From: a virus
IMG/VR virus record: IMGVR_UViG_3300046003_003000
Span: 1 to 20,099 of that record
Length of the DNA stretch: 20,099 nucleotides
Strand: one strand, 5' to 3'
Shown: in pieces, positions 2,527-20,099 of the stretch
Numbering within the stretch: position 1 is the first letter of the stretch
Layout of the letters: each line of letters starts with the position of its first letter
The notes under the pieces: model-generated
Database searches by the model: none
What the model saw: only the letters and a program-made list of their open reading frames with translations
What the model was told of the DNA's origin: nothing
Program-made: the position numbers and the translations under genes

Positions 2527-3196
2527 TTTCTTTCTCTTTGTTGTAAACAAAACTTATATAACAAAATCTTCGAAAGTTATTTTTAACTTTTTCAACTTCA
2601 TGAAATAAATCATGTTTTGTAAAATCTAACATTACAAAATTACCTTTAAATGGAAGAATTTCCTCATGTAATTTGTCATCTCTTAATATAAACTTGCCGC
2701 CACCGTCTTTGTAATCTTTTTCATCTGAAAGGTAGATTAAAATTACACAAAGTCTTCCTTGATTTAAGTCATAACCACCATCGTTATGATTCTCAATAAA
2801 ATCTCCATCTTCATATAATGTAAAACTATCATTAAATCGAATGTTGTCTTCAGTGATCTCTGGGTAAATGGGTTGTATAAACTCGGTCACTGATTTTTGA
2901 AAAAACTTAAACATTTCTTCATTTTGAAAAATCTTTATCGACTCATACCATTGTTGCGCTATAGACCAGTTATTCTGTTTTACTAACTCTGTTCTACTAT
3001 CGATCTCATCTACTAAACAATCACCGCCAAATTCTGGATGCATTTTAATAACGTGTCTATACCTATACATCAATTTCTTGTCATCCGACAAAAAAATTAA
3101 CTTATCAATCATTTTTTGAAAAGTGTCTGGATCTTTTATGATCTCATCAACTTTTCCAATATAATATCCTTTTTCCAATAGTTGATCTTTAATCAC
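2519..3196 (-). CDS. 2OG-Fe(II) oxygenase (second copy, prolyl-hydroxylase-like)
   Basis: The protein has 225 residues if it starts at GTG 3196, which is preceded by AAGGA (3208-3212) and overlaps the upstream stop by 8 nt (GTGATTAA), the same junction form seen at 8154. An ATG at 3241 would add 15 residues and a 53-nt overlap. The Fe(II) ligands are H137 and D139 in ENHNDGG and H199 in DLFHEVEKV; R209 or R210 in NNFRRFCYISF should bind 2-oxoglutarate. VILIYLSDEKDYKDGGG is the usual strand-turn with the GG pair. It lies between two sugar SDR genes, so a sugar or sugar-bearing protein is a plausible substrate. The substrate is not known. Confidence 0.82.
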   Translation of the reverse strand: MIKDQLLEKGYYIGKVDEIIKDPDTFQKMIDKLIFLSDDKKLMYRYRHVIKMHPEFGGDCLVDEIDSRTELVKQNNWSIAQQWYESIKIFQNEEMFKFFQKSVTEFIQPIYPEITEDNIRFNDSFTLYEDGDFIENHNDGGYDLNQGRLCVILIYLSDEKDYKDGGGKFILRDDKLHEEILPFKGNFVMLDFTKHDLFHEVEKVKNNFRRFCYISFVYNKEKENE

Positions 3197-5572: not shown

Positions 5573-6173
5573 AGTGTGGGTATTTTGATTTATATGCATA
5601 ATGTATAACGTCTACGGGAATGTTTCTTTTAACATTCCATGTAGCTTCTGTAGGGGTGTATGTAGATATGCCGTTGTCTTCGACTATAAAATGTAGGGGC
5701 AAATCAAAGTTCCTGGCATACTTATGAACTTCATAGAAGGTGCCACCTTCAAAGCTCATGTCGCCAATAAAGCACCAAACTTTATCTGTGCTACCAGATT
5801 TCTTAATTGCCTGCGCTACACCTAATGCAATAGGCAATGTAGCAGATACAATAGCACTAGAATAGAATTTTTCATCAATGTTACAAAGAGTAATAGACTT
5901 ACCCGCTAAGATTTCTTTCTCTATCCAAATAGGATCTATATCTTTTAAAAAAGCATGATAGTGACTACGCCATGTACTAAACACCCAATCAGAAGTTTTA
6001 ATACGTTTAAAAATTTCAATTAGTTGATCTTCGTTTCCGTTGCTTAGATGCACTGGCCCACGAATTTTTGCATTTTCCCAATGACTGACTATCAGTTCTT
6101 CAAACTGAATTAAATCTTCTTTTGTTTTAGTAATACTTCTTACTACCGGATAGTTCTTTAAATTTTGTATCAT
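5544..6173 (-). CDS. Short thiamine-diphosphate enzyme, dehydrogenase E1-alpha/transketolase-N-like
   Basis: The protein has 209 residues from the ATG at 6173, which overlaps the RmlC-like stop as ATGA; an upstream in-frame ATG at 6212 would add 13 residues and a 43-nt overlap. The fold landmarks of the pyruvate/acetoin dehydrogenase E1-alpha group are clear: VFSTWRSHYHAFL (59-76 region), SSAIVSATLPIALGVAQA, and the thiamine-diphosphate motif GDM at 137-139 ending in EDNG with N167. Usual E1-alpha chains have 320-400 residues, so the C-terminal third is missing and no E1-beta/transketolase-C partner is present in the window. It may work with an outside partner in making a C-C-branched sugar or a two-carbon transfer. 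The last 29 nt overlap the next gene. Confidence 0.75.
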   Translation of the reverse strand: MIQNLKNYPVVRSITKTKEDLIQFEELIVSHWENAKIRGPVHLSNGNEDQLIEIFKRIKTSDWVFSTWRSHYHAFLKDIDPIWIEKEILAGKSITLCNIDEKFYSSAIVSATLPIALGVAQAIKKSGSTDKVWCFIGDMSFEGGTFYEVHKYARNFDLPLHFIVEDNGISTYTPTEATWNVKRNIPVDVIHYAYKSKYPHYGSGKWIAF

Positions 6174-6715
6174 CTGTCTCGACTCTGTAGTATAGGTGTT
6201 GGGGTAGGCCATTCAATGTTAAACTGGGGATCGTTCCATTTTATAACACCTTGGCTGTTCTCATCTACGTATTCACCTTGGTAGAATAATGTATAATGGA
6301 ATATGCAATCAGTTAATGCATAATGACCGTTGGCAAATCCAGGTGGCACTAATACCTGATCTCTAGTCTTTTCAGAGATTATATAGGATTCCCATTTACC
6401 AAATGTATTCGACTCTGGTCTAACATCTAACACAACCAAATAGATATCGCCAACAAGAGCTTGTACTAGCTTCCATGTTTTATTGTCGTAATGCAAACCT
6501 CGAAGCACACCTGCATGAGATTTTGAAAATCTGCTGTGTACTGCAACATTTTCTGGCATTAGGTTATTGACCGGATGAACTTTCGAATGATATGTAGTAA
6601 AGATTTCGCCACGATATTCTCTGTAGATACTAGGAGTAAAAATTGGAACTGCTTTATCAAATGTATTCAAGTATGATACATTAATATCTTTCCAGTTTTG
6701 GTTTTTGTAATTCAT
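6170..6715 (-). CDS. rfbC: dTDP-4-dehydrorhamnose 3,5-epimerase-like protein (RmlC/RfbC family)
   Basis: The protein has 181 residues, the normal length of the family. Cupin-fold RmlC landmarks appear in order: VLRGLHYD with the catalytic-type H75, LDVRPESNTFGKW, VLVPPGFANGHYAL, a Tyr-containing YTLFYQGEY strand, and GVIKWNDPQFNIEWP near the C-terminus. RmlC inverts carbons 3 and 5 of dTDP-4-keto-6-deoxy-glucose in dTDP-rhamnose synthesis; relatives make only one inversion, on related 4-keto sugars. No RmlA, RmlB or RmlD partner is identified in the window, so the substrate may come from the host, from genes outside, or from the three SDRs downstream. The gene symbol marks family, not proven reaction. 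Its stop overlaps the next start by 4 nt. Confidence 0.85.
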   Translation of the reverse strand: MNYKNQNWKDINVSYLNTFDKAVPIFTPSIYREYRGEIFTTYHSKVHPVNNLMPENVAVHSRFSKSHAGVLRGLHYDNKTWKLVQALVGDIYLVVLDVRPESNTFGKWESYIISEKTRDQVLVPPGFANGHYALTDCIFHYTLFYQGEYVDENSQGVIKWNDPQFNIEWPTPTPILQSRDR

Positions 6716-6735: not shown

Positions 6736-8154
6736 TTATGGAGCCGTTACGCGGATATGCAAATATCTTACAAGGTTAGCAGTGTTTGGTTCAGAGTGAT
6801 GTATTGTTAACAAATGCCTGTGGTTATGAAGTAATATTTCTTCCATACTCCAATACCAGTTGTGTAGATCTTCTTTACTCATAGAGCACAGCCGACTGAT
6901 TTCGTCTGAAATCATCTTTATCCTTTTATATAAATCTTGCTCGTTGTCATAATCTTCATTGATAAACGGACTAAATGTCTTGAATCCTAACCGACGTAGC
7001 TCATTTAATGCTCCAGGAAATGCTAAAAATATAAAAGGCTGAAAATTAATAAGGGGTTTAAATATCTTCTCTGTGAGCGACTTATATATTCCATGTACAT
7101 AAGTTTCAGATGCAATGTAAAAATAGGAATTTTCACTCTGTCTACTGTGCCTATCTGCCCAACCTGCTACATTTAGATAGTTGCTGCCTGGTTCTTCTCT
7201 TAAACTATGGGGAATTTGAGTATGGAGTTGTTTAAGTTTTTCTTGATCTAAATTTATAAATTGATGTGTTGATGACATGTGCAATCCATGTTGGAAATCA
7301 ACATTGTCTAAGCAAGACCAATCTCCTTTCTCCAATATTCCATCAGATGCAAGTTTATGCAACAATGCTATTCTATGATCTCTAGCTCGTCTAATAGGAT
7401 AGATAAAATAATCTTGTCTAATGGTGTTTCGAGTTTGTTTGAAAGATTCTTCATTTAGTCTCCAATCAACATTTGCAGTATAATGATGCGACATATGAGA
7501 AATTAAGAAAGGAAAATTATGTACTTCGATATATCTTTCATGTTCTTGAAACCATTCCTCGTAAATAGTTTTAGCGTTAAAACTATTAATACCTAATATA
7601 ATTTGACTTTTAGGAATCCCTGCGTTTTTTAATCCACTATGAAAGTCTACATACTCTTGATATTCAATAAAGTTTTCCTGACCCCAATCTAAAAATATTA
7701 TTGCTTGACCTGCACGTACATCTTCTAACACTTCTGCTGAAATATGTTTCCAAAAGAACTCACCGTTTAGCTTACTACCAACACTGTCAACACCTGTGAA
7801 TCTAGCAAAATGGGGAGTTACCTTAATAGGGTAGATATACCTTCTTACAGATCTGTTTCTTTTTCCAAAGTATACAGAGTCTTCCTTAATCTCTACCAAA
7901 GAATGGAAACACTGCTGTTGTAGGAAAGAGCCGCCGTTTCTAATACTGTTTGGCCAATCGCCAAATGCGTTTCCAAACATACGTTTCATAGGGTTTAATT
8001 CTAATTCTAAGTCTTGATCAAAAAAACTTTCTGTATCTAGTCTGTTAGAATACAAGGTGTGCATATAATTTACTACACCCATTTCGGGTGGTAGAGCATT
8101 TGGTAATATAACGTTAGGGAAAACATAATCGTAAAAAAAAGGTAACTTAATCAT
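6736..8154 (-). CDS. Unrecognised large protein, possibly glycosyltransferase-like (paralogue of 4175-5572)
   Basis: The protein has 472 residues and belongs to no family I can name with certainty. It is paralogous to the protein at 4175-5572: both have an RxxRxHR block (here 255-261), a block (S/T)EKxxxPxxNxQPFI (here 361-375), and an identical 14-residue block GFKTFSPFINEDYD (390-403). The order of a central strand (AIIFLDWGQE), the arginine/histidine-rich block and a C-terminal TEK motif resembles GT-B-type glycosyltransferases such as fucosyltransferases, where an EK pair contacts the nucleotide sugar; this is a weak analogy. No signal peptide or clear membrane span. It lies directly before the RmlC-like gene, with the largest gap of the window (20 nt) between them. 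Confidence 0.5.
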   Translation of the reverse strand: MIKLPFFYDYVFPNVILPNALPPEMGVVNYMHTLYSNRLDTESFFDQDLELELNPMKRMFGNAFGDWPNSIRNGGSFLQQQCFHSLVEIKEDSVYFGKRNRSVRRYIYPIKVTPHFARFTGVDSVGSKLNGEFFWKHISAEVLEDVRAGQAIIFLDWGQENFIEYQEYVDFHSGLKNAGIPKSQIILGINSFNAKTIYEEWFQEHERYIEVHNFPFLISHMSHHYTANVDWRLNEESFKQTRNTIRQDYFIYPIRRARDHRIALLHKLASDGILEKGDWSCLDNVDFQHGLHMSSTHQFINLDQEKLKQLHTQIPHSLREEPGSNYLNVAGWADRHSRQSENSYFYIASETYVHGIYKSLTEKIFKPLINFQPFIFLAFPGALNELRRLGFKTFSPFINEDYDNEQDLYKRIKMISDEISRLCSMSKEDLHNWYWSMEEILLHNHRHLLTIHHSEPNTANLVRYLHIRVTAP

Positions 8155-8944
8155 ATTTTATAAAAGGGTTAGTAGGTCGGAGTTTATTCCAGTTCTGTGA
8201 TTGATTAGTCGATGAGCTCTTATCAAGAATTGATTCAACTTCTTGTAACATGCTTATAGATTTAGGCGTAATAAATTCTGAAAAATGCTTAGACATATAT
8301 TTGAAATGCTGTGTTTGGCTAGGATGTCCGTCTGAGGAGTTTTCTTTTATAAAATAAGTATATTCTCTGGTAGGTCCAATAAATTCATCTAAACTTTCTT
8401 TAACATCTAGCATATTGTAAATGTCATTTATTTTTTTAATGTCGTAGGAGTCTAAATCTAATATGTCATAATCTTGTAAATAATATCTATTATCGATGCC
8501 CATTAGTATTTTATGTTTTATTTTTTTACTAACTAAAAACTCTTTAACAGCTTTTATTGCAATCCAGGATTGGTAAACTGCCCATTTTTCATTCCACACA
8601 TTTTCAACAAAATTTGAAATAACTTTATATGATGGATCAGAGTTATGTTTGCTTGTTAAGTTTCTTAAATCACCGTTTGTCTGCCAGGACTTAGATTCTT
8701 TATCAATATAAGAAAATCTAGATATTCCTGAAAACATTACTAGAATATAATCAGTTTCTGGATTAAACTGAATCGTGTCATTCCATTCAAATAATTTATT
8801 CATTATGTATGTATTTGATGCCCCGCCTTTTCCAAAATTAGCATAGATATCAAAATTAGATCCTATAAAATCTGCCCAAGTGGCCCAGAAATAATTTGTA
8901 TAACTGCATCCAAAAGAAAAACAACGTGTTTTATTCATAATCAT
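8147..8944 (-). CDS. SGNH/GDSL-like hydrolase or acyltransferase
   Basis: The protein has 265 residues. RCFSFGCSYTN gives block I with S14; NFGKGGASNTYI gives block II with G39 and N44; ILVMFSGISRF is block III; and ENSSDGHPSQ gives the catalytic-type D205 and H207 of block V. All four SGNH blocks are thus in place, more clearly than in the preceding gene. No signal peptide is seen, so it should act in the cytoplasm or on the particle. A second ATG two codons on (8938) is also possible. The 8-nt overlap with the next gene (ATGATTAA) suggests coupled translation. The likely role is an acyl esterase or O-acyltransferase on a sugar, inferred from context. Confidence 0.72.
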   Translation of the reverse strand: MIMNKTRCFSFGCSYTNYFWATWADFIGSNFDIYANFGKGGASNTYIMNKLFEWNDTIQFNPETDYILVMFSGISRFSYIDKESKSWQTNGDLRNLTSKHNSDPSYKVISNFVENVWNEKWAVYQSWIAIKAVKEFLVSKKIKHKILMGIDNRYYLQDYDILDLDSYDIKKINDIYNMLDVKESLDEFIGPTREYTYFIKENSSDGHPSQTQHFKYMSKHFSEFITPKSISMLQEVESILDKSSSTNQSQNWNKLRPTNPFIKYD

Positions 8945-9696
8945 TAAGTACTAATATTATATTTATTAACATAGAACTTGTACAATTCTTCAGAATACAA
9001 TTTATGCGGTTCTTCACCGTGGTGCCAGTATTTGGCTTTATGATTAACATGACCTGCGTTTTTATATTTCCAATAAAAACTTTGCTCGTTATCAATTAAA
9101 TCTAAGTAATAACTTTGATCAATTTGATCTATATAGAAATTAATTTGCTTTGCGGGAGTAAACATGTGCATGGTGTTGCACATTATGCTCTTTACCTGTT
9201 GTAATTTCAAAAAATACTGCATCTGTAAAATTAAATTGGCACTTATTATTTCTATGTACGTTAGATTGTTAGTAATAAATTGATGACATCCTGCAATAAC
9301 TTCCATTTCTTCCTTGCCGTTACCTTTGTATCCTAGATTAACACGAATGTAATCTCTCGATGCTTTAGATACATAGTCACTGGATAGATTCCACTGCTCA
9401 TGCCATGTAATTCTGTCCATGGGGATATCTAGTCTAGAACTTTCTGTCCAACCTATTAGTACAACAATATCCATACTTTCTGAATTGTAACACTCGTCAA
9501 ACCATTCAATGACAGTCCTAGCTATGCATTGATTATTGGCCGCACTTGAAGCAATGTTTATCGGTCGGCGGCCTAGCTTTTCTGCTAAAAGATTTCCAAA
9601 CGAATGTTGTCTATTATAGATACTATCTTCAGTTCCGTCGATTTCGGATCCGGCTGCATGACTACATCCCGCAATCAATAATACTCGTTCTTTCAT
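8944..9696 (-). CDS. SGNH/GDSL-like hydrolase or acyltransferase
   Basis: The protein has 250 residues. The N-terminus LLIAGCSHAAG carries the likely nucleophile S12 in a GCSH block, as in phage-type SGNH proteins, and NIASSAANNQCIART fits the second block with its Asn. A central VVLIGWTESSRLD strand corresponds to block III. The C-terminal His block is less clear: NAGHVNHKAKYWHHGEE contains several histidines. No signal peptide or membrane segment is seen. Family members cleave or transfer ester-linked acyl groups, often on sugars, which suits the glycan context. It overlaps the radical SAM gene before it by 4 nt and the next SGNH gene by 1 nt (TAATG). Function by motif only. Confidence 0.6.
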   Translation of the reverse strand: MKERVLLIAGCSHAAGSEIDGTEDSIYNRQHSFGNLLAEKLGRRPINIASSAANNQCIARTVIEWFDECYNSESMDIVVLIGWTESSRLDIPMDRITWHEQWNLSSDYVSKASRDYIRVNLGYKGNGKEEMEVIAGCHQFITNNLTYIEIISANLILQMQYFLKLQQVKSIMCNTMHMFTPAKQINFYIDQIDQSYYLDLIDNEQSFYWKYKNAGHVNHKAKYWHHGEEPHKLYSEELYKFYVNKYNIST

Positions 9697-11927
9697 TTCT
9701 CTGTTTTCTTAATGGATGAAATAGGAATAGCAAACATAACTTCTTTTTCTGGAATAGTCACTGAAGACTTGTCGGGTACTGCAATTTCATAGGCAGCAGT
9801 ATTACCCCAATTGCCTTCTCCGATATATTGGTAGTCAAAAGAGAAATCAAAATTTTGATTTAAAAATACTTCTTCCTTTAACATATCTCCAAACTGAGAA
9901 TCATCTCGACCATCTTCAACAGACCAATTTGGTTTAGCTAATTTTCTAGCACGTTTAGCTGTGTTGCTTGTTATTCGACTATAATCCTGAGCATAGAACG
10001 CACCTTCTCTCTCTTTTTCTCTAGATTTGTGGTCGTCATCAGGATTACGAATCTTTTGATCGAATTTAAAATTAAAATCAGCTTTCCATAGACCCGAGTC
10101 ATCAATATTAAATTTAAATATCGCAGTATACATTCCAGGGCCAAACTGAGTTCCAAATTCTCTTAAATCAATTTCTGGATTAAATTTAATCTCAGCATCA
10201 TACCCACCACGAGTCTTCCATAACATTCTAAAGAGAGGCCACATTTCATTTACTAATGCATCAGCAAATGGATTAATGTTAGGTTTAATAATATTATAAT
10301 CAAACTTTTCGTATTCAACTTCTTTAATTGTAGATGGATTGTGCAATGTAATCTTGTAATGATCTCTAGGCAGTGAATCTCTCACAGGATAACTAATTCT
10401 TCCACTTTTTACACAATTTTTTAGGAAATCTATAAATGTATAAAAAGATTTTACCCTAGTCATTACGTGGGTTCCACCTTTTGTGAAATCTTTTGTAATC
10501 CAATGCCCGTGGTACTTGTGATAGCCTACATTAAACTTGTCTGGATTTTGTCCTACAATAGTTTCCGGACCCATACCAAAGCCGACGCCTGCGCCAATGT
10601 TGTTGATATTCATATTACGCATACGCCACAGGAATGTCATAGTGTCAGCAAAGTCTTGCAAATTCTCTGTTGGGAACCCAATAATCCAATTAGTCGCCGC
10701 CCAGATTCCTACTTTTTTGCCGTCACGGAAGTTATCTTCCATTTCTTTAATAGTGACGCCTTTTGCCATGTCATCGAGTACTTTCTGACTACCCGACTCA
10801 ATCCCATAGTTTAGCATAATGCAACCACCTACTTTGAGATCTTTAAAGTATTCTAAATCCATGCGGCCGTCACATCGTGCATATCCAGTCCATCGTATCT
10901 TTAATCCCTTAGCTTCAACTGCCTTACAGAAAGCACGTAGTTCTTTAAGGTTGCCGTTAACCAGACTATCAATGAACCAAATAACGTCTGTGCCTTTGTT
11001 ATAGTACAACCATTCTATTTCTGTTATTAGATCAACTGCCTGGCGTTGACGATACTTCCAGAAGTGCGTCTCCTCGCAGAATGTACACTTGGCTGTACAT
11101 CCTCTACTGATCTCACTGTTAACTCCATTGGGAATTTTATACTGACTAAAGTCAATTGACTCGTAGTCTGGCATTGGTAATCCGTTGATACTGATACGTT
11201 GATCTTCTGGTTGCGTTATATACTGGGGAGTACTATGGTTGACTCCATTTTCAACTTCTTCTAATATGTTTAATAGAGCTTGTTCACCTTCACCATTAAC
11301 AACATAATCATAATAGTCCTGTATGGCAAACCAAGACTTCTGCACATTACTTCCTCCTACTGCAATTTTAACATTAGGCATACGGCGTTTTAATTCTTGG
11401 CACATCCATTTAGTAGGCTCTTCACTGATGTAGTAAACACTAAATCCTACTATTTCTGGATTAGCTGCTTCAATCTCATCACAGGCCTTCATTAGTAAAG
11501 GTTCTAACAAAGGATGAATATCTCGCAAATAGGTATCACCTAACCAATGCCAGCTAGCACTAGAATCCCACAACCTAAAAGGCAACAGGCCGTTTGGTTT
11601 CCAATTGCCCGCATATTCATTATATGCTCTAATATTTAAATCTATGATAGTTGTTTCATAGCCTGCAGATTTTGCTATTCCGCTTAGTCGAGCAAGATTA
11701 AACGGAGGCATTTCAGGAGCCCACTCGGGACACAATACTAAGATTAATTTAGTATTGCGTGTTTTATAGTCAACATAAACAGGTGTAACATTGGCCTGCT
11801 GTATTTTTTTAGCATAAGGCGCAATGGCCTCCATCATTGAAAGATGTCGAGCGTCTTCAATATCTGCTGTAGGACGCTCTCTAGGAGCCATGTTTTTGTT
11901 AGCAAGAGCTGTTAGGTTAAAATCCAC
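9693..11927 (-). CDS. B12-binding-type radical SAM protein with C-terminal extension
   Basis: The protein has 744 residues. It starts at GTG (11927), supported by AAAGGA at 11934-11939; the first ATG, at 11891, has no such site. Residues about 55-240 look like the Rossmann-type cobalamin-binding domain of this radical SAM class (LILVLCPEWAPEMPPFNLAR, then VGFSVYY and IAVGGSNVQ). The radical SAM motif is C277, C281 and C284 in SRGCTAKCTFCEE, followed by VIWFIDSL and MLNYGIESGSQKVLDDMAKG, typical of the family. Known B12-radical SAM enzymes often methylate unactivated carbon or phosphorus, but some do other chemistry. About 180 C-terminal residues, rich in alternating hydrophobic and charged positions (YTAIFKFNIDD, FDFSFDYQY), look like an extra beta-rich domain I do not recognise. 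It overlaps the following SGNH gene by 4 nt (ATGA). Confidence 0.85.
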   Translation of the reverse strand: MDFNLTALANKNMAPRERPTADIEDARHLSMMEAIAPYAKKIQQANVTPVYVDYKTRNTKLILVLCPEWAPEMPPFNLARLSGIAKSAGYETTIIDLNIRAYNEYAGNWKPNGLLPFRLWDSSASWHWLGDTYLRDIHPLLEPLLMKACDEIEAANPEIVGFSVYYISEEPTKWMCQELKRRMPNVKIAVGGSNVQKSWFAIQDYYDYVVNGEGEQALLNILEEVENGVNHSTPQYITQPEDQRISINGLPMPDYESIDFSQYKIPNGVNSEISRGCTAKCTFCEETHFWKYRQRQAVDLITEIEWLYYNKGTDVIWFIDSLVNGNLKELRAFCKAVEAKGLKIRWTGYARCDGRMDLEYFKDLKVGGCIMLNYGIESGSQKVLDDMAKGVTIKEMEDNFRDGKKVGIWAATNWIIGFPTENLQDFADTMTFLWRMRNMNINNIGAGVGFGMGPETIVGQNPDKFNVGYHKYHGHWITKDFTKGGTHVMTRVKSFYTFIDFLKNCVKSGRISYPVRDSLPRDHYKITLHNPSTIKEVEYEKFDYNIIKPNINPFADALVNEMWPLFRMLWKTRGGYDAEIKFNPEIDLREFGTQFGPGMYTAIFKFNIDDSGLWKADFNFKFDQKIRNPDDDHKSREKEREGAFYAQDYSRITSNTAKRARKLAKPNWSVEDGRDDSQFGDMLKEEVFLNQNFDFSFDYQYIGEGNWGNTAAYEIAVPDKSSVTIPEKEVMFAIPISSIKKTEK

Positions 11928-11930
11928 AGG

Positions 11931-12893
11931 TTATCCTTTTACTTTTGGAATTATGATATCAGTACCACAGTGGCAGTGTTCCTTGCCACAGATAATTTGT
12001 TTAGGTCCAATATCATTTATATCGCCTAGTATGTTACCAACATGTCCGCCCTGTCCACAACTTGCTAGACTGATTGCTCCAGTTGGATTAATAAACAATG
12101 CATCACCTACATTACATTTCCATCCTTTAAAGAAATTTTGTCTATTGATAATAACATCGTTACTGTTCACATGAGTTGTAGTCCTATCATCAAATTTAAC
12201 GTAACTGATACAATTATTTTCTTTTGAAGGTTTCTCTACAGTTTGTTTAGTATCAACGTTGTGTTCGCTTAGGAATTTAACTTTTTTAGGATCTTTATAT
12301 TCCCAAGGCCCTGCATTAACTGTCATCTCATCGAATAACGGTGTCCATTCAATAAAATAGTTAGGTAAGAGGGTTTTCAAATGCTCTCCAAACTCTACTA
12401 CTTCCCAGAATCTTTTATCGTGCATGAGCATCTTACTAGACAAATAGTTTACTTTATTGCACAAGAACAAACTGTTCTTCTCATAGACTTTCTTATCTGA
12501 AAACTCTACGTGAAAGCTGGCTACAATATCGTCAAATAAATGATAGTGTTTCTTCCACCATGCTAACGGACGACTTAAATTAGTGTTAACAGCAATGGTA
12601 CAATTAGGTATCTCCTCACGTAGCCATTCACAAACTGGAATGAAATTCCTCCATGCCGTAGGTTCTCCGCCGCTGAAGAAGAATTTAAAATCTTGATAAC
12701 CTTCAGCCTTGTACTTAGAAATGATAGTATCTAAATTATAAAGATACGTGCTTAGATTTCCGTTGTTTGTCTCAGTACCACTCCAATTACCCGGATTGCA
12801 GTAACTACATTTAAAGTTGCAATAATTGTTTACCTGCCATGTAACTGCAAGATATTTTGTTTTTGCAACAATTTCAATTAACTCTTTGCCCAT
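11931..12893 (-). CDS. Radical SAM/SPASM-like protein (C-terminal auxiliary cluster)
   Basis: The protein has 320 residues. The radical SAM motif is near the N-terminus: CNFKCSYC at C25, C29 and C32; FFFSGGEPTAW follows. The auxiliary cysteines are at the C-terminus: C260, C279 in the LASCGQGGHVGN segment, C302, C307 and C309, the usual SPASM/twitch order. The domain order is thus the reverse of the four preceding genes, although all belong to one operon. The start at 12893 overlaps the upstream gene by 16 nt but is backed by a good ribosome-binding site (12899-12905). SPASM proteins usually modify peptides, sugars or small molecules; which applies here cannot be told. The B12-type radical SAM gene starts 3 nt after the stop. 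Confidence 0.86.
   Translation of the reverse strand: MGKELIEIVAKTKYLAVTWQVNNYCNFKCSYCNPGNWSGTETNNGNLSTYLYNLDTIISKYKAEGYQDFKFFFSGGEPTAWRNFIPVCEWLREEIPNCTIAVNTNLSRPLAWWKKHYHLFDDIVASFHVEFSDKKVYEKNSLFLCNKVNYLSSKMLMHDKRFWEVVEFGEHLKTLLPNYFIEWTPLFDEMTVNAGPWEYKDPKKVKFLSEHNVDTKQTVEKPSKENNCISYVKFDDRTTTHVNSNDVIINRQNFFKGWKCNVGDALFINPTGAISLASCGQGGHVGNILGDINDIGPKQIICGKEHCHCGTDIIIPKVKG
11934..11939 (-). promoter_or_regulatory. Ribosome-binding site supporting a GTG start at 11927
   Basis: The minus strand reads AAAGGA followed by 6 nt (TAACCT) and then GTG. The position is ideal and supports the GTG over the downstream ATG at 11891. Confidence 0.6.
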
Positions 12894-14155
12894 TCATACA
12901 CCTCTTTTAGTTCTGGAACAACGTCCAATAGTTTTTCTTTCCTGTGTTCATCTACTTCATCATTGTATTTGATGAACTCCTGAATTCCACCTTTATTAGG
13001 TTCCCCCCTCATAAGGGTGTAAACCACTGTCTTAAAGGAATTTTTTAAATCTCTGCTAAATTCGTATTTGTACATCGATTGAATATATCGATTCTTTAAT
13101 TTGTCCTTAACATGATCCGGCAATATCATAATATTAGCGTACCAAGGATCGCTTAACAGATTAAATCTAGCATTAGGCGGCCGCCGAGGATCACTAAAAT
13201 CTAATAGTCCTTGATCAACTAGACTATCAAAAAAGTCAGGGAAGCTATGTACGTTCCAGATACTGATTGTAGGAGTTATTTGAAAGTCAGCATGTGGAAC
13301 TTCTTCTCGCAACTTCTTAATATTTTTAATTGTTCGTTCCCAATCTGTGCCTTTACGTATGATCTCTGCTTGAGATCCTCCTGCATCTAAACTAGCCCAT
13401 ATTTTTAAATTAGGAAACTTCTTCCACAGCTTGATTAAATCTTTGTTTTTATATTTAAGTACACTAAAGTTTGTAGTATAAGTTAACTCAACTTGATCTG
13501 TTAGTTTGTTTTGTATCCAATAATCTAAACATTCATAGTGTTCTGGAGTGATAATAACTTCGCCACCTGCAAAGTACACTTCGGTAACATCTTTTAAATA
13601 GGGTTTTAATTTAGTCATGAACATTTGATCTTCATTAGAATTAACAACAATAGTTTTCATTCCAAAGAATTTTTCTAGCTGGTCCATTCCCCATTTCTTT
13701 TTAACATATTCTTCTGCCCACTGACTAGAGCACCCAGGTCCACAACTACGACATTTCATATTACATAGATTACTAAATCTAATATCCATGTAACGCATTT
13801 CAAATTTATCTATGCTGCCGTCTTTGTTGGTATCTTTAATCATATCAATGTATTCAAAGCCTCTACGTTTATTGTGGCTTTGTCGCATAGTCCATGTACC
13901 CAATAACTCAACATCATGGCAACGTTTACATTCCGGACTTGGTTTATCCTCAAGCATGTCTCTGCGAATCCTCTTAAAGTCTTCACTATTCATCATTTGA
14001 ATAATCGACTCATCTGATTTAATTTTAGCAACAGGCTTACTACTGTCTGCAACACAACACGGCATTACATTTCCATTAGGCCAAGAGTGAAAGTGTATCC
14101 AAGGAAGCACACAGAAGTGTTTGCCTTCTTTGATTAAATGTTTAACATCTTGCAT
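12878..14155 (-). CDS. Radical SAM protein with N-terminal twitch/SPASM-like module and EF-hand-like linker
   Basis: The protein has 425 residues. Auxiliary module: C15 in FCVLPWIHFH, C33-C34 in MPCC, C76-x-x-C79. Radical SAM motif CNMKCRSC at C131, C135 and C138, followed by C142 and then by VYFAGGEVIITPEHY, where the usual GGEP has become GGEV. Between module and core, residues 108-119 (DTNKDGSIDKFE) match the 12-residue EF-hand calcium loop pattern. SLDAGGSQAEIIRKGTDW marks the same family as the two genes before it. A clear ribosome-binding site (AGAGGA, 14161-14166) precedes the ATG. The C-terminus is longer than in the paralogues. Its end overlaps the next gene by 16 nt. The substrate is unknown. 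Confidence 0.86.
   Translation of the reverse strand: MQDVKHLIKEGKHFCVLPWIHFHSWPNGNVMPCCVADSSKPVAKIKSDESIIQMMNSEDFKRIRRDMLEDKPSPECKRCHDVELLGTWTMRQSHNKRRGFEYIDMIKDTNKDGSIDKFEMRYMDIRFSNLCNMKCRSCGPGCSSQWAEEYVKKKWGMDQLEKFFGMKTIVVNSNEDQMFMTKLKPYLKDVTEVYFAGGEVIITPEHYECLDYWIQNKLTDQVELTYTTNFSVLKYKNKDLIKLWKKFPNLKIWASLDAGGSQAEIIRKGTDWERTIKNIKKLREEVPHADFQITPTISIWNVHSFPDFFDSLVDQGLLDFSDPRRPPNARFNLLSDPWYANIMILPDHVKDKLKNRYIQSMYKYEFSRDLKNSFKTVVYTLMRGEPNKGGIQEFIKYNDEVDEHRKEKLLDVVPELKEVYEWAKS
12899..12905 (-). promoter_or_regulatory. Ribosome-binding site deciding the 12893 start
   Basis: The minus strand reads AGAGGTG, 5 nt before the ATG at 12893. It lies inside the end of the upstream coding region and supports the 16-nt gene overlap as real rather than a start-choice error. 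Confidence 0.6.
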
Positions 14156-14156
14156 A

Positions 14157-15392
14157 TTATTCCTCTAAATCTTGTAGTCTAGACAGTTCAGGAAATGTTT
14201 TAAAAAAGTCTTCGTTTCTTAATTTATCCTGAGCTTCTGTATGTTTAAAAAATGTAGCTTTATTATCTTTCCATGTATTGTCCTGGTCGGCAAAACTAAT
14301 TGCATCATTAACTAATCTCGTTAATCCTGTATAATTGGTGCCATGACTCTTTACTAGATCTTGTGCAGAATCTCTAGCTAATTGTTTCAACTCTTTAGGC
14401 AGACTCTTGGCTGAATAATAACTAGGATGAACTGCTAGGTATAAGCTATTGTACCAATCATTAGTTTGTACAATGTTTTTACTCTTTAAGTAATTGTAAA
14501 ATTCTCCAAGAGTGGGATAGTTAAACAAGCTAAACACTGTATTAATTTGAAACACTACGTAATCTAAATCACGGAATGTTAATAGATTGCTTTCAATCTT
14601 GCCCCAATCAGTGCCATGTCTTAACCATTCTGCTCTTTCACCGTAATGGTCAATGCTACAACTTAGTTCAATCTTTTTAAAATGCTTCCATAAGCTAAGT
14701 ATGTCATGATTCTTATATTTGATTGTACTGGCATTTGTGTTATATCTTAAAACCGTATCTGTTCTGCCTTTTCTAATCATTTCTTCTAGTATAACATAAT
14801 GTTCTTCGGTAATCAACGGTTCACCACCTGCAAAGTATGCTAGGTCAATATGTTCTATATGATCTAATACTTCTTGTAATAAGTCCCCTTTATGATCATC
14901 TGCGTGTATAACAATTGGCTTGTTTTTATCATAATGTCTATCTTCGGCGGCCCACTGACTACTAAATTCACTGCCGCATGTCCTACACTTAAAATTACAT
15001 ATATTACTGAATCGAATATCAAAATAATGCATCTTAAAATCTGGAACAGTTCCATCTTCTAATGTAGTAGGTACAAGATCATCAAAACGCTTTGCCCAAT
15101 GATCTTTGCTGTACGTTCTAAAACTATACGGGCCTGCCTCTTCGTGTTTATAGCAAAAGTCGCAGATATCATTCTTTACATTATTGAGCATGTTTAGACG
15201 TAACTGTTTCATTTTATCACTGTTGAATGCTTCTTTTAATGATGTTTCTTTAGTACTACCGAACGGAGTTGAATAGTTATTACTGCAACACGGATAGATA
15301 TCCCCTTTTGGAGTTACATTTAAATGCATCCAAGGAAACATACAAAATACCTTGCTCTCGTTTAACAGAAAGTTTTTATTAAGATCTTCCAT
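14157..15392 (-). CDS. Radical SAM protein with N-terminal twitch/SPASM-like module (paralogue of preceding gene)
   Basis: The protein has 411 residues. Auxiliary module: C17 in VFCMFPWMH, C35-C36 in YPCC, C77-x-x-C80. Radical SAM motif CNFKCRTC at C132, C136 and C139, followed by AYFAGGEPLITEEHY. SIDHYGERAEWLRHGTDW and a FYNYL segment follow, as in the preceding paralogue. All cluster ligands are kept in both copies, so neither looks like a dead duplicate; they may form a heteromeric pair or act on successive positions of one substrate. Gaps of 1 nt on both sides fit a single operon. The reaction is not known. Confidence 0.87.
   Translation of the reverse strand: MEDLNKNFLLNESKVFCMFPWMHLNVTPKGDIYPCCSNNYSTPFGSTKETSLKEAFNSDKMKQLRLNMLNNVKNDICDFCYKHEEAGPYSFRTYSKDHWAKRFDDLVPTTLEDGTVPDFKMHYFDIRFSNICNFKCRTCGSEFSSQWAAEDRHYDKNKPIVIHADDHKGDLLQEVLDHIEHIDLAYFAGGEPLITEEHYVILEEMIRKGRTDTVLRYNTNASTIKYKNHDILSLWKHFKKIELSCSIDHYGERAEWLRHGTDWGKIESNLLTFRDLDYVVFQINTVFSLFNYPTLGEFYNYLKSKNIVQTNDWYNSLYLAVHPSYYSAKSLPKELKQLARDSAQDLVKSHGTNYTGLTRLVNDAISFADQDNTWKDNKATFFKHTEAQDKLRNEDFFKTFPELSRLQDLEE
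14161..14166 (-). promoter_or_regulatory. Ribosome-binding site before the 14155 start
   Basis: The minus strand reads AGAGGA 5 nt before the ATG at 14155, inside the last codons of the upstream gene. It is one of the few strong Shine-Dalgarno matches in the block, where many other starts rely on overlap with the upstream stop codon. Confidence 0.55.
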
Positions 15393-15393
15393 G

Positions 15394-16617
15394 TTAGTCC
15401 ATTAATGATGCAAGCTCAGGAAACACCTTAACAAAGTCTTCTCCCCGTACTTTGTCCAATTCTAGTACATAGGCACGGAATGCATCCTTGTACAATTCCC
15501 ACTGATTAGATGATTCGGTCCAATTAGCGGCATTCTGAATAGTATTTTTCTGAACAGGAGTAAATCCGTTAGAGTTCATGTAGTGGAGCAACTCGTTAAT
15601 TTTATCTCTAGCTTGTTGTTTTAAATTAGTAGGTAATATTTGAGCTGAGAAGTACTCAGGATGAGTTAACGGATATAGACTATAACATCGACCAGGTGGT
15701 GGTTGATAAATCTTTTTATCAATTAGATAAGTGTAAAATTCTTTTAAGGTTAGATAGTTGAATGCACTGCTAACTGTATTCAATGATAGTTGAAGATTTG
15801 GCAACGACTTTAATATTAACAAATTGCTTTCAATTTCTCCCCAATTAGTTCCTGATCTAATGTATTCTGCACGTTCACCTACATGATCAACGCTTGCCCA
15901 AAATTCAATAGGCTTTTTAAATTGACTCCACAGCTGGATAATGTCTTTGCTTTTGAATTTTAAATTACTAGCATTAGAGTTATATACAAGGGCAATATCT
16001 GTACGGCCTTGTTTGATCATTTCTTCTAGCATTATATAATGTTCTTCAGTGATCAAAGGTTCGCCTCCTGCAAAGTAGGCATATTCCATATGAGGAATAT
16101 GTGACATTATTTCTTCTAACAGTCTAGGTCCATTGTTCTTTGGGTATATCTTAGAATATGGCAGTTTTCTTTTAATATCTTCCTGTTCCCATTGCGTACT
16201 GAATTCAGCATTACAAGTCCTGCATTTAAAATTACAAATGTTGCTGAATCGAATATCAAAGTAGCGCATCTTAAAATTGTCAAGATGTCCGTCTGATTTA
16301 GTATCAACTATAACTTCGTCAAAGTATTTGTTAAATCTATCAGCGTATTGAAAGCGGCTAGATCTAACTCCACTTGCTTCGTGTGAGTGACAGGCTACGC
16401 AGGCAGGATTAACTCTTTCATTTAGCATATCTAAACGCAACTGTTTCATGTTTGGAGAATTGATCAACTCCTCTAGATTTTGTGAGTTTGAGTTGCCAAT
16501 AGTTGTTTTAGCAATACAACATGCGGATGCAGTTCCAGTTGGACTTGTGTGTACATGGATCCACGGAGACATACAAAATACTTTGCTTTTGTTTAATAGG
16601 AATTCTTTACTGTTCAT
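15394..16617 (-). CDS. Radical SAM protein with N-terminal twitch/SPASM-like module
   Basis: The protein has 407 residues. The N-terminal auxiliary module shows C15 in VFCMSPWIH, C33-C34, and C73-x-x-C76. The radical SAM core begins with YFDIRFSNICNFKCRTC, giving C128, C132 and C135, and continues with YFAGGEPLITEEHY. A later SVDHVGERAEYIRSGTNW segment is shared with the neighbours. It is a close paralogue of the next gene (14157-15392): length, cysteine spacing and most motifs match, which points to tandem duplication. I recall an NCBI family named twitch-domain radical SAM protein (N-terminal twitch) with this layout, but cannot confirm membership here. The substrate is unknown. The gap to the next gene is 1 nt. 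Confidence 0.87.
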   Translation of the reverse strand: MNSKEFLLNKSKVFCMSPWIHVHTSPTGTASACCIAKTTIGNSNSQNLEELINSPNMKQLRLDMLNERVNPACVACHSHEASGVRSSRFQYADRFNKYFDEVIVDTKSDGHLDNFKMRYFDIRFSNICNFKCRTCNAEFSTQWEQEDIKRKLPYSKIYPKNNGPRLLEEIMSHIPHMEYAYFAGGEPLITEEHYIMLEEMIKQGRTDIALVYNSNASNLKFKSKDIIQLWSQFKKPIEFWASVDHVGERAEYIRSGTNWGEIESNLLILKSLPNLQLSLNTVSSAFNYLTLKEFYTYLIDKKIYQPPPGRCYSLYPLTHPEYFSAQILPTNLKQQARDKINELLHYMNSNGFTPVQKNTIQNAANWTESSNQWELYKDAFRAYVLELDKVRGEDFVKVFPELASLMD

Positions 16618-17996
16618 TATAATTTGCTACACTTTTTAAAAAACTTTTCCATCTCTGGAAAGGTTGCGACAAAATTGGTTCCGCGTCGTGTGTCTAGTTC
16701 ATTGAACCAGTTGTAAAAATCACGCTGCCCTTCATCGATTTTATTTTGATCATATTCAGTCGCTCCCATATAATCAACTACTCGTCTAAACTTTTCAAAC
16801 TCAACTTCTGAAAACTTAGTTGGATCTTTATCGCTTACGTTCTTTTCCATAAACTTAAGACTATCCTTCATATACTTCATAAACTCTTTTTTAGGAAGAA
16901 TGTTCATATCGTACTGCAAAGGCTCTTTCAAGTACGGAGTATCAAATCTAACCATCTGCGGTTGGTCTGTTTTATTATATCGATTATAGATACTTCGCCA
17001 TTCTAGTATCTTCTCTAGCAAGCTCTTAAATGTTGTTACAGATAAGATATTGAATGTAATCATAAAGCTAATCGGTTGGCCGGTACCTTTTAGATAAGCA
17101 TCTAAGTTGCGTTCCCAAATTTTTAAATCCAATCCTGTTCGAATATATTCAGCACGGGGACCCCAAGTGTCAATGCTAGTATATAACTTAAACCTGTTGA
17201 TGCCTTTGTTATCTGTTAGATGATTAACATACTCAACCATTTTATCAACTAGGGCGGGCTTTACTCCTAGGTTACTATTAATGTTTAATTCAAGTTTAGG
17301 CATTGGATCTTCTTTAAGACTAGCCAACAGCTTCCATGTACTTGTGTGCATCAACGGTTCTCCTCCTGTAATACGTAGAATGGTTAATGTCTTACGCACT
17401 GTCGGCCACCATTGCCACCACGCATCTACATAAGGATTCTTTTCTTCACGTTCGTACAGATCCATCCAATCAATATCGCAACGATGATTCTTAACTGACG
17501 TTACTGGGCCGTATTGTTTGATTTCATTATAGAAACGACTACTGGCTTTTGGATGACAATATCCGCATTTAAAGTTACACTCGTTGCCAAAACTAACTTC
17601 AATATATTCCGGGTTTACATTTTTGTCCCAGGGATTATCTATAACTTGCTTATAACGTTTCTCTGTAAAGATACTAGCAGTTTTGATATGTCTATCACTG
17701 ATGTAATCAGGACCCATGTTCTCAATGTTCCAACAGTATTGGCATCCTTTGGTCTGTACGCCTTCTAGCATTTCTTTGCGCTCTTGCTTCTTTATGGAAG
17801 TGTTATGCAGAGCACTAGGATTCTTTTTAATCTCAGCTAGATCAATTTTATGTGGAGCAGGATGATAACAACTGTGAGTTTCTCCTGTTTGTAGATATAA
17901 GGTAACATGATGCCATTTAGCTAAACAAAACGTTGGACTTGTTTTGTTTACAATGGCAATAACCTTTTTAATTTTTTCGTGATCTGATTCTGACAT
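16617..17996 (-). CDS. Radical SAM protein with N-terminal twitch/SPASM-like module (divergent member)
   Basis: The protein has 459 residues. The radical SAM [4Fe-4S] motif CNFKCGYC is at C140, C144 and C147, and GGEP at 211-214 binds SAM. Ahead of the core lies an auxiliary-cluster module: C24 in FCLAKWHH, a glycine turn, C43, then C85-x-x-C88. The next three genes share this layout but have a CC pair where this protein has C43-YHP, and their CxxWxH block reads FCxxPWxH. After the core come the family landmarks TSIDTWGPRAEYIRTG and FNILSV. The reaction is unknown: it should cleave SAM to make a 5'-deoxyadenosyl radical and act on a substrate held near a second cluster. First of six consecutive radical SAM genes; its stop codon overlaps the next start by 1 nt (TAATG), which suggests translational coupling. 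Confidence 0.83.
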   Translation of the reverse strand: MSESDHEKIKKVIAIVNKTSPTFCLAKWHHVTLYLQTGETHSCYHPAPHKIDLAEIKKNPSALHNTSIKKQERKEMLEGVQTKGCQYCWNIENMGPDYISDRHIKTASIFTEKRYKQVIDNPWDKNVNPEYIEVSFGNECNFKCGYCHPKASSRFYNEIKQYGPVTSVKNHRCDIDWMDLYEREEKNPYVDAWWQWWPTVRKTLTILRITGGEPLMHTSTWKLLASLKEDPMPKLELNINSNLGVKPALVDKMVEYVNHLTDNKGINRFKLYTSIDTWGPRAEYIRTGLDLKIWERNLDAYLKGTGQPISFMITFNILSVTTFKSLLEKILEWRSIYNRYNKTDQPQMVRFDTPYLKEPLQYDMNILPKKEFMKYMKDSLKFMEKNVSDKDPTKFSEVEFEKFRRVVDYMGATEYDQNKIDEGQRDFYNWFNELDTRRGTNFVATFPEMEKFFKKCSKL

Positions 17997-18002
17997 AATA
18001 TG

Positions 18003-18572
18003 TTATTCGGTTTTTAAGAAGCCAACTAGCATGATGCGCGGCTCTTTTGCAAAAGGGTTCACAGGAGTAACACAGTGAGGTAACTGTTTTGATCCGTGAT
18101 TCATTATTACAAGTTTATTAAATTGAGGTAAAGATACAGAAGCTGTTTGGTCTTCATGTACGGACAGTAAAAGGCCGCCCCAATCCCATTTCCAATTACT
18201 GTTGAGGTACCAAACAAATCCCCAATCAGATATGTAATCATCTTTGTGAATTCTAAAATGTCCACCTTCATTCATGTAATAACAGCGTAATTCTTTATGC
18301 ACAATTTTTTTAGATACTTCTTTTTCAATTGCAGGGATTATATAAGAGTTAACGCAGTCTTTAATTAGATTAGAATTTTCTAAGAATCCTGATCTTTTAA
18401 AATTAGATAGATATACCTCATCGTTCTCTGGCAAGGTTGATGACACTACATTAAAGTCTCTCTGATAATAAGTTTTTCTCTCCTGCATAACGGTATCGTA
18501 GTCTGCAGAAAGAAATGCCTCTCTTATTTCATACGCAACCTCAGCTGGAACCACTCCAAATATTTCTTTCAT
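18003..18572 (-). CDS. 2OG-Fe(II) oxygenase (prolyl-hydroxylase-like fold)
   Basis: The protein has 189 residues. The iron-binding triad of the 2-oxoglutarate/Fe(II) dioxygenase family is visible: H109 and D111 in HFRIHKDD, distal H166 in LPHCVTPV, and R179 in EPRIMLVGF as the 2-oxoglutarate anchor. A GG pair at 132-133 lies on the expected strand. The length is typical of a single-domain phage-type oxygenase. The substrate is unknown; a protein side chain, nucleotide or sugar are all possible. An AGGA stretch lies about 9 nt before the ATG. The gene sits between the repeat glycosyltransferase and the first radical SAM gene, 11 nt and 6 nt away. It is only distantly similar to the second oxygenase of the window (2519-3196). 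Confidence 0.82.
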   Translation of the reverse strand: MKEIFGVVPAEVAYEIREAFLSADYDTVMQERKTYYQRDFNVVSSTLPENDEVYLSNFKRSGFLENSNLIKDCVNSYIIPAIEKEVSKKIVHKELRCYYMNEGGHFRIHKDDYISDWGFVWYLNSNWKWDWGGLLLSVHEDQTASVSLPQFNKLVIMNHGSKQLPHCVTPVNPFAKEPRIMLVGFLKTE

Positions 18573-18583
18573 ATACTGTTTTC

Positions 18584-20099
18584 CTAGTCTGTCATTTTAT
18601 TAAAGTATTCTCTTAACCAATTATAGTCATTGATCTTTAATAATGCATTGTGATCATTTACAAATTTGTTAGCAAAGTCGCAGGCGTGGGTTGCACCTAA
18701 GGCTGCATAACTACCAAATTTCTTTTTAGGGTCCGAACTCAGCCATTCGTTGAGTTTGCCCATTTGATTGTTCTTATATAGTTTAACGCATTCTCTAAAA
18801 GCACTACGCCAGGTTGAGAATTCATCTACATTAAATGAAGTAATACAACTAATTCTATCTTCTGCACTTATATTAGGCATTATGCCCGTAAACATATCAA
18901 GAGTGGTCCATTTCTTCTTCTTCATTAGGATACTCTTATTAAACAGTTTAACACCTCCGTTATGATAAGTCAAATTATTTACTGGATTTTGGCTGCACCA
19001 TACATAGGCACAGTCTCTGTCAAATATGCCTGGCTGAAAATCAAATTCCCAATCGTCCACTAGCCATGCGTCTCCGTCAACAACAAAGAACATATCAGAA
19101 GTTGACAATTTGGCTGCGGCCTTATGTGCGTTAAAGATCCCGTCAACACCGTGTATCCGTTTTGCCCAAGGTGCTTTCTCTAGTACACGATTCCAATTAT
19201 CATCAGCATTGGGTTCTTTATAGGAAATAAAGATGACATCTAATTGATCTGCAAACAATGGAGTTACTAACCCAACTGTTTTCTCACCGATAGGTTTGTT
19301 GCAAAACTTTGCTTTAACAGTCCAAACTTTTTCTTTAGAAGTAGAATCTAAATACCAAACATGTTCATAGGCAAAGTCATGCCATGGTACAATATACTCT
19401 TCATCGTATTTTAATTTAGGTAAGTTAGGATTGTAGGCAATGTCTACATTTGGACTAATGTAGTCTACAATTTTACTGCCTTCTAATTCTTCTGTTACCT
19501 GAATGGTGAACGCCCAAATACCATCCTCGTCATTTCTTAAATGTTTTCTATCTAACATCCAAATATGCTCGTAGGTAAAGTCATGCCATGGCATTGTGTA
19601 ATCTAAATCGTAGTCTAACTTTGGTAGTTCAGGATTATATTTTACAGTAAACTCGGGAGTGATAGTTCCTAACCATTTCCATTCTTTGGGTTTACGCCAC
19701 AACGGCGTAAATTTTATAACCCATAATCTCTCGTCGTTGGTTTGATGTATAGGATCTAACTCATAGGCACACTCGTGTGCTAGATCATAAAATGGAGGGC
19801 AACAATCATTGACATCTACTCCTAGGTCTGGTAGGTGTTCATTAAATTCAACAAACACATCGGGGGCAACATATCCCATGTCTTTAGTACCTGATACTTC
19901 CTTGCCCATGGGCTGACAACTAAATGCCCAAACTTTATCATCTAAGGGATTGAATCTCGGATCTATGTACCATACTAACTTATAATTCCTATCCCACTTG
20001 TTAGGATCAAATGTACCAAATGGGTCGTCCTCATAGGTTATAAGTTTATCAATATCTGGATTCTTTGTCCAAACTAATTTAGTCTTAACTATGTCAATT
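18584..20099 (-). CDS. Repeat-containing glycosyltransferase-like protein, 5'-truncated by window edge
   Basis: The reading frame stays open to the right edge; the ATG at 19909 lies inside it, with 63 more codons of repeat-like protein before it, so the true start is outside the window. At least 504 residues are visible. The N-terminal part is four tandem units of about 68 residues, each with a Y/FNPxLPxL segment, an aromatic EHxWxLD segment and a VWxF/VWTV strand. From about 19246 down follows a single globular domain starting LDVIFISYKEP, with a FFVVDGDAW motif (D278-G-D280 counted from the 19909 ATG) that fits the metal-binding DxD of GT-A glycosyltransferases, and a later NGGVKLF segment. 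Likely role: sugar transfer, with the repeats as a binding or scaffold region. The sugar and acceptor cannot be told. The gene ends 11 nt before the oxygenase gene and is probably co-transcribed with it. Confidence 0.6.
   Translation of the reverse strand, partial: IDIVKTKLVWTKNPDIDKLITYEDDPFGTFDPNKWDRNYKLVWYIDPRFNPLDDKVWAFSCQPMGKEVSGTKDMGYVAPDVFVEFNEHLPDLGVDVNDCCPPFYDLAHECAYELDPIHQTNDERLWVIKFTPLWRKPKEWKWLGTITPEFTVKYNPELPKLDYDLDYTMPWHDFTYEHIWMLDRKHLRNDEDGIWAFTIQVTEELEGSKIVDYISPNVDIAYNPNLPKLKYDEEYIVPWHDFAYEHVWYLDSTSKEKVWTVKAKFCNKPIGEKTVGLVTPLFADQLDVIFISYKEPNADDNWNRVLEKAPWAKRIHGVDGIFNAHKAAAKLSTSDMFFVVDGDAWLVDDWEFDFQPGIFDRDCAYVWCSQNPVNNLTYHNGGVKLFNKSILMKKKKWTTLDMFTGIMPNISAEDRISCITSFNVDEFSTWRSAFRECVKLYKNNQMGKLNEWLSSDPKKKFGSYAALGATHACDFANKFVNDHNALLKINDYNWLREYFNKMTD
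19253..20068 (-). repeat. Four tandem ~68-residue coding repeats
   Basis: Repeat units lie at about 20068-19856, 19855-19649, 19648-19445 and 19444-19253. The last two are closest: both contain YNPxLPKLxYD, PWHDFxYEHxW and a final ISPN/VTPL segment, and PWHDF recurs exactly 68 residues apart. At DNA level the 15-mer aaagtcatgccatgg occurs at 19373-19387 and 19577-19591, 204 nt apart. The two upstream units are more diverged but keep the LD/ID-P plus VWAF/LWVI pattern. More units may lie beyond the window edge. I do not recognise the repeat as a named family. Confidence 0.75.

Follow-up and report, generated by a model that had tools for sequence, protein, structure and literature searches.

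Phages related to the virus analysed here carry a fixed array of radical SAM genes, four for twitch enzymes (tw1 to tw4) and a fifth (rs5), together with a B12-binding radical SAM gene, and this array is a real, co-inherited unit. Radical SAM cassettes in host-recognition or structural regions of phages are already known, and what we found in no paper is the fixed tw1-tw4-rs5 array with its B12 gene. The reading that we prefer, with moderate confidence, is that the stretch belongs to a host-recognition and glycan island of a T4-like jumbo phage and works as a polycistronic, cytoplasmic carbohydrate-modification unit with serial radical editing. Four paralogues in fixed order and two further radical enzymes, in one operon beside genes for sugar nucleotides and tails, point to a substrate class that is concrete and can be tested.

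The operon and its genes

The window, by which we mean the whole stretch of DNA analysed, is the complete IMG/VR virus record IMGVR_UViG_3300046003_003000 (20,099 bases), itself part of a larger genome. All of its 19 identified genes are on the minus strand with intergenic gaps of -56 to +20 bases, mostly overlapping, and because of this shared strand and spacing they are very probably transcribed together as a single unit. The features, in their order on that strand, are as follows.

18584..20098, minus strand: W-rich repeat protein whose C-terminal region is glycosyltransferase-like (GT-A, DGD), from sequence reading
18003..18572, minus strand: 2OG-Fe(II) oxygenase (PF13640, 1e-9)
16617..17996, minus strand: tw1, twitch radical SAM enzyme (NF033640, 321.6 bits)
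15394..16617, minus strand: tw2, twitch radical SAM enzyme (NF033640, 374 bits)
14157..15392, minus strand: tw3, twitch radical SAM enzyme (NF033640, 373 bits)
12878..14155, minus strand: tw4, twitch radical SAM enzyme (NF033640, 376 bits)
11931..12893, minus strand: rs5, short radical SAM enzyme with twitch/SPASM-like C-terminal cysteines (PF04055, 4e-6)
9693..11927, minus strand: B12-binding radical SAM enzyme (PF02310 and PF04055)
8944..9696, minus strand: SGNH-like protein, DUF6071-like (PF19547, 2.6e-5, below cut-off)
8147..8944, minus strand: second SGNH-like protein, from sequence reading, without Pfam match
6736..8154, minus strand: unkA, glycosyltransferase-like, paralogue of 4175-5599, from motif reading, without family match
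6170..6715, minus strand: RmlC-type cupin epimerase (PF00908, 1.5e-35)
5544..6212, minus strand: TPP enzyme, E1-alpha-like half (PF00676, 3.7e-14; PHROG 34187, 1e-47)
4175..5599, minus strand: unkB, glycosyltransferase-like protein, from motif reading
3189..4172, minus strand: SDR, GDP-fucose-synthase/C4-reductase-like (PF01370; NF047922, 2.4e-35, below cut-off)
2519..3241, minus strand: 2OG-Fe(II) oxygenase (PF13640, 9.6e-9)
1558..2550, minus strand: SDR, GDP-fucose-synthase/C4-reductase-like (PDB 1bws, 1.2e-28; NF047922, 8e-39, below cut-off)
626..1561, minus strand: SDR (best PDB match 6vo6, 1.6e-100)
207..629, minus strand: 140-aa DUF protein on the 3' side of the operon (PF25006, weak)

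The six radical SAM ORFs run uninterrupted from 17996 to 9693, with no other gene between them and with gaps, counted from 16617-17996, of -1, +1, +1, -16 and +3 bases. Each contains one C-x3-C-x2-C motif and each is matched by Pfam Radical_SAM, in some cases with a score below the curated cut-off. This bears out the preliminary description of this DNA, which saw six consecutive radical SAM genes in one operon. Its further statement that the six are different holds for rs5 and the B12-type gene, whereas the other four are paralogues of one family, NF033640. The operon reaches past 9693-17996 at both ends and spans the whole 20 kb record, in which structural genes are absent. The T4 late-promoter motif TATAAATA does not occur in the window (0 against 3.9 expected).

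The gene at 18584-20098 is cut at its 5' end in the window and encodes 599 aa in a near-identical contig (L085); in almost every relative a shorter counterpart, a gt gene, immediately precedes the array. The oxygenase at 18003-18572 was found in 11 loci and is confined to the window's clade and a few others. The SGNH-like gene at 8944-9696 comes after the B12 gene in many relatives (57 loci).

Conservation of the array

Searching with the B12 gene gave 186 viral relatives, 80 of them retained for comparison, and searching with tw3 gave 62 loci, on related contigs of up to 364 kb. The order tw1-tw2-tw3-tw4-rs5 is kept in about 140 loci, several of which share a contig and hence are not independent, and since the same order recurs in this many places the array is not a product of chance. 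The genes touch or overlap, with median gaps inside the array of +1 to -23. Nineteen departures were flagged, and in most of these tw3 is duplicated, tw2 is absent or the B12 gene is placed upstream.

The array was also assessed as a unit by two anchor-independent tests. Among loci anchored on rs5 and having upstream sequence, a twitch gene ends within 150 bases in 65 of 66, and at least three twitch genes lie within 6 kb in 65 of 66. Large contigs that were found only through the B12 gene have an NF033640 match above cut-off in every case (50 of 50) and at least three such matches in 48 of 50. The preliminary description had proposed co-occurrence and gene order as the check on its idea, and the homologues, instead of being scattered and alone, occur together across loci with their order kept. 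It had missed that the B12 gene is often set apart from the other five radical SAM genes by 3-9 kb of other genes, as well as the viral origin of the operon in T4-like jumbo phages. The variant seen in the window, with the B12 gene directly after rs5 and then the RmlC/TPP/SDR set, is found in about a dozen loci.

Larger numbers of these genes can be seen on two contigs, G010 (117 kb, the contig of L141) and G031 (77 kb, the contig of L041), which have 21 NF033640 matches each and in which radical SAM runs alternate with proteins of 210-390 aa. A Pfam scan of seven other proteins in a 21-match contig gave no useful match.

The radical SAM enzymes

All four twitch enzymes match NF033640 (N-terminal twitch, N_Twi_rSAM) over their full length with 322-376 bits, against a curated cut-off of 170 bits, in agreement with the N-terminal auxiliary module earlier proposed for four of the six; a Pfam N-terminal SPASM/twitch match was found in three of them. 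The closest pair, tw2 and tw3, is 49% identical, while tw4 shares 30-31% with these two and tw1 only 22-23% with the other three. In a tree of 188 proteins, where the paralogue labels were taken from best hits and the clades are independent of the labels, tw1, tw2 and tw3 form separate clades with support of 100, 97 and 87, and 35 tw4 representatives cluster with support of only 42. Because of these separate clades and the fixed gene order, the sequences mark tw1-tw4 as ancient paralogues of one family, the result of old duplications kept in order and not of a recent amplification.

With 37 bits against NF033640, rs5 stays below the family's cut-off of 170. Its five invariant C-terminal cysteines fit a C-terminal auxiliary cluster and go with the earlier description of one SPASM-like gene, just as PF02310 goes with that of one B12-binding type. 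The ligands are intact in all of these enzymes, which look active, as had been noted. An alignment of 78 twitch proteins has C17, C36, C77 and C80 (auxiliary), C132, C136 and C139 (radical SAM) and a GGE motif invariant; the three radical SAM cysteines, a GG and the five C-terminal cysteines of rs5 are invariant in 67 of 67 orthologues; and C277/C281/C284, the radical SAM cysteines of the B12-type enzyme, are invariant in 45 orthologues.

AprD4 and OxsB act on sugars or nucleotides, and these two are the best and second-best structural matches of the predicted B12-type model (pLDDT 87.5), with a VIA-align Z of 18.7 and an rmsd of 3.3 over 393 residues for AprD4 and a Z of 17.5 for OxsB. Sequence identity to either is just 16-17%, the score against NF033070 (AprD4) is 33 bits where the cut-off is 500, and an extra C-terminal region beyond about residue 620 has no counterpart in the AprD4/OxsB alignments. 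The model thus has an AprD4-like fold, and a shared fold shows no function. The twitch profile search gave viperin (3e-5) and, weakly, the BtrN twitch domain (0.001). The likeness to aminoglycoside synthesis drawn in the preliminary description gains indirectly from AprD4 and BtrN, and also from a StrB1-like amidinotransferase and a DegT aminotransferase that adjoin the B12 gene in many relatives.

The AlphaFold model of tw3 (pLDDT 93.4) has the usual radical SAM core, preceded by the auxiliary module. Its tied top matches in a fold search include anSME, BlsE, CteB and DesII, with SkfB also among the top, and peptide-acting enzymes (anSME, CteB) resemble it about as closely as sugar- or nucleoside-acting ones (BlsE, DesII) do. 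We considered the fold comparison as an arbiter between peptide and sugar substrates, and with such ties it is not decisive. To our knowledge no substrate has been described for any NF033640 protein, nor a function for the twitch-type family of aquatic phages.

Most characterised SPASM/twitch enzymes act on peptides, and the enzymes of the array could likewise put crosslinks, epimerised residues or methyl groups on virion proteins in a RiPP-like manner, with the glycan genes as mere neighbours. The presence of anSME, CteB and SkfB among the top fold matches and of giant virion proteins next to the array would go along with this. Against it, no RRE/PqqD-type match was obtained with Pfam or NCBIfam, inspection of the array turned up no small precursor-like ORF, and glycosyltransferases and sugar enzymes are consistent neighbours even in a distant cultured phage, which leads us to regard peptide or protein modification as improbable.

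Phage identity and host

Gp23, the T4-type major capsid protein, is encoded in 7 of 10 large array-related contigs. Judged by sequence, the window's relatives are T4-like (Gp23) jumbo phages and the window is a stretch of such a genome. One relative, IMGVR_UViG_3300032298_001311 (G009), has a full-length pmoC at 55859-56578 on the same contig as the twitch array, with PmoC 3rfr as its best match (2.7e-155), and this points to a methanotroph host for that phage. A paper on pmoC-carrying phages (PMC7674155) does not mention radical SAM.

No close relatives of the window were found among 50,697 phage records, and cultured-phage matches for the B12 gene, tw1 and unkB were absent or generic only. 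In the same records the twitch genes have distant relatives only, from Vibrio phages K566/K567, KVP40 and phages related to these, with identities of 20-25%, and the K566 twitch gene used as query against viral contigs brought up no relatives. A bacterial origin of the cluster was also considered, and a tw1 scan of genome contigs, pattern-limited and weak as a test, returned only Helicobacter MoaA.

Virion and sugar genes around the array

Six large contigs share an order that starts with a giant structural protein, small virion and fibre-like proteins and two GT-A-like glycosyltransferases (assigned by sequence reading, Pfam giving no match), and continues with a further GT-like gene and tw1-rs5. 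In most of them a variable stretch of 3-9 kb, the B12 gene and sugar genes follow. As present in the contigs the giant protein has 1,900-6,000 aa and is mostly Thr/Val/Asn-rich; the one that was scanned matches PHROG 10938 (virion structural protein). In these relatives the array is directly downstream of virion genes and on the same strand, and the island adjoins tail and virion genes and has glycosyltransferases and sugar genes, as a cluster of the pelagimyophage type does. The near-identical contig has Thr/Ser-rich fibre-like proteins directly upstream of the window's operon. One of these proteins, virion-like and encoded at L085:2065-3183, carries a Hint domain, which is a self-processing domain. 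The island is closed by a W-rich repeat protein of 1,200-2,300 aa with a GT-like C-terminus (L150:7610-11314 and cluster c14 in G001, G002, G004 and G007), and its repeats are similar to the ones encoded at 18584-20098 in the window.

This location also bears on DNA hypermodification, in which phage glycosyltransferases and radical SAM enzymes are both known to occur. Protection of the phage DNA would then rest on a modified base that these enzymes make and glycosylate, and a radical SAM gene of KVP40 near a QueC-like gene adds to that precedent. We find this highly improbable given the place of the array among virion genes and the lack of a base-modifying entry enzyme among the 19 window genes or the annotated island genes.

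The sugar and glycan setting described earlier is supported by SDRs, an RmlC-type epimerase and glycosyltransferases in the window and its relatives. The sugar genes past the B12 gene include, in many contigs, a DegT aminotransferase, an amidinotransferase, a NodU-like carbamoyltransferase and a protein read as a 2OG-oxygenase/GT-like fusion. The amidinotransferase at L150:1770-2750 (G003) is closest to StrB1 of streptomycin synthesis (4.9e-69) and has homologues in 43 of the loci compared; its place beside a DegT aminotransferase makes a route to a guanidino-sugar or cyclitol possible. Relatives also have a UDP-glucose-dehydrogenase-like gene and a KedN5-like second B12 radical SAM gene. Glycosyltransferases and virion genes accompany the array constantly, and it is the sugar-nucleotide and decoration genes that vary, the window's own set being common to about 12 loci. 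Since the downstream sugar set varies in this way, the constant radical SAM array need not act on the window's sugar.

As for that sugar, the best PDB match of the SDR at 626-1561 (6vo6) is presumably the structure of Cj1427. In the synthesis of the Campylobacter capsule, Cj1427 acts as the GDP-heptose C4-dehydrogenase (PMC10680097). Among the best PDB matches of the RmlC-type protein at 6170-6715 are Campylobacter capsular GDP-heptose 3,5-epimerases (7ang/7m14, about 1e-40), and the GDP-fucose synthase family includes, going by entry titles, Campylobacter heptose C4 reductases. Because these two proteins and the GDP-fucose-synthase-like SDR resemble Campylobacter GDP-heptose enzymes, one may reasonably guess that the window's own sugar is a modified heptose. 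The identified window genes do not include a nucleotidyltransferase. The TPP half at 5544-6212 has an intact-looking GD...N motif, is without a beta partner in the window and stands beside RmlC in about 12 loci. With regard to the supply of the radical enzymes, none of 17 contigs has a flavodoxin that could serve as a phage-encoded reductant, and 6 of the 17 encode an A-type Fe-S carrier.

Proposed function

A scan for membrane-like segments (Kyte-Doolittle, 19 residues, threshold 1.9) found none in about 200 proteins of six islands nor in any window protein, and therefore the islands do not encode any step of export or of lipid-linked assembly. This argues against a phage-encoded O-antigen assembly line, with no flippase, polymerase or polyprenyl-phosphate transferase, and bears on the possibility that the operon, by way of the host's export machinery, changes the lipopolysaccharide or capsule of the infected host, for example to exclude competing phages. 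Such a role was suggested for the comparable host-recognition region, rich in GT genes, of pelagimyophages (PMC7029224), and is favoured by the resemblance of the window's sugar genes to Campylobacter capsular heptose genes and by LpxC- and PagP-like genes nearby in K566. Considering also the same-strand position directly after virion genes, we think host-surface remodelling rather unlikely, though the most serious of the alternatives that we weighed.

The building of glycans in the cytoplasm on a soluble acceptor is favoured instead because the glycosyltransferase and virion neighbours are constant, radical SAM and GT genes alternate in K566, and membrane segments are lacking. Under our preferred reading of a carbohydrate-modification unit, the Cj1427-like dehydrogenase, the RmlC-type epimerase and the GFS-like reductases would make an unusual activated sugar, probably of heptose type, and glycosyltransferases would attach the sugars. 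The sugars could then be edited at C-H positions by as many as five twitch/SPASM radical SAM enzymes and a single B12-type enzyme together with the 2OG oxygenases, with epimerisation, dehydrogenation, deoxygenation or C-methylation as candidate reactions and each twitch paralogue probably fixed on one position or one glycan residue. The acceptor would most likely be the phage's own virion, that is the neighbouring tail-fibre or giant Thr/Asn/Ser-rich structural proteins, and less likely a host O-chain. We infer sugars as the radical substrates, and likewise the reaction types, step order and acceptor, from this gene setting. What stands of the multi-step radical pathway suggested in the preliminary description is one co-inherited operon with enzymes that look active and sugar genes around them; a multi-step route on one sugar is not supported.

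A wider and still tentative possibility is that jumbo phages have a conserved radical assembly line of several enzymes, which act on carbohydrates during or after glycosyl transfer with one enzyme per position, giving virion glycans that hosts can neither make nor degrade, a viral counterpart of the radical sugar chemistry of the aminoglycoside type. If virion glycans are indeed edited, radical carbohydrate chemistry would join the ways in which phages alter surfaces.

Relation to known systems

The earlier statement that no named system has this set of genes stands insofar as we found no paper on the fixed array, and needs amending insofar as radical SAM cassettes in phages have been reported (PMC7029224, PMC5332604, PMC12390700). 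Pelagimyophages and T4-like cyanophages have a GT-rich host-recognition cluster with inserted radical SAM cassettes (Zaragoza-Solas et al. 2020, PMC7029224). These phages are alike in being T4-like and in having a hypervariable region where genes for tail fibres, glycosyltransferases and sugar nucleotides occur with such cassettes. Their cassettes are reported as variable, however, where here a fixed tw1-tw4-rs5 with the B12 gene recurs in dozens of mostly jumbo-phage contigs. The marine genome TARA_ERS488813_N000010, also T4-like and rich in these genes, has 12 of them (Nishimura et al. 2017, PMC5332604), a comparison of gene number and not of order or type. The cultured Aeromonas phage 332-Vera has eight radical SAM genes in its structural/tail-fibre cluster, which the authors describe as "highly unusual" (PMC12390700). 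Compared by description, it too is a jumbo phage with many such genes inside a virion structural cluster, but it belongs to the Chimallinviridae and is not T4-like.

The Campylobacter jejuni capsular GDP-heptose pathway is similar to the window in its dehydrogenase-, epimerase- and C4-reductase-like genes and differs in that GDP-heptose supply genes were not seen in the window; we know of no radical SAM enzymes in that pathway. In the cultured Vibrio phage K566, distant twitch radical SAM genes alternate with GT8/GT4-type genes. K566 and KVP40 differ from the phages described here in that their proteins are only about 20-23% identical, their radical SAM genes are fewer and the tw1-tw4-rs5-B12 unit was not found in them. 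As cultured phages with distant relatives of the array, both offer laboratory systems. KVP40 (L239) has three annotated radical SAM genes at 7056-9162 and 15445-17767, one of them near a glycosyltransferase and one downstream of the QueC-like gene.
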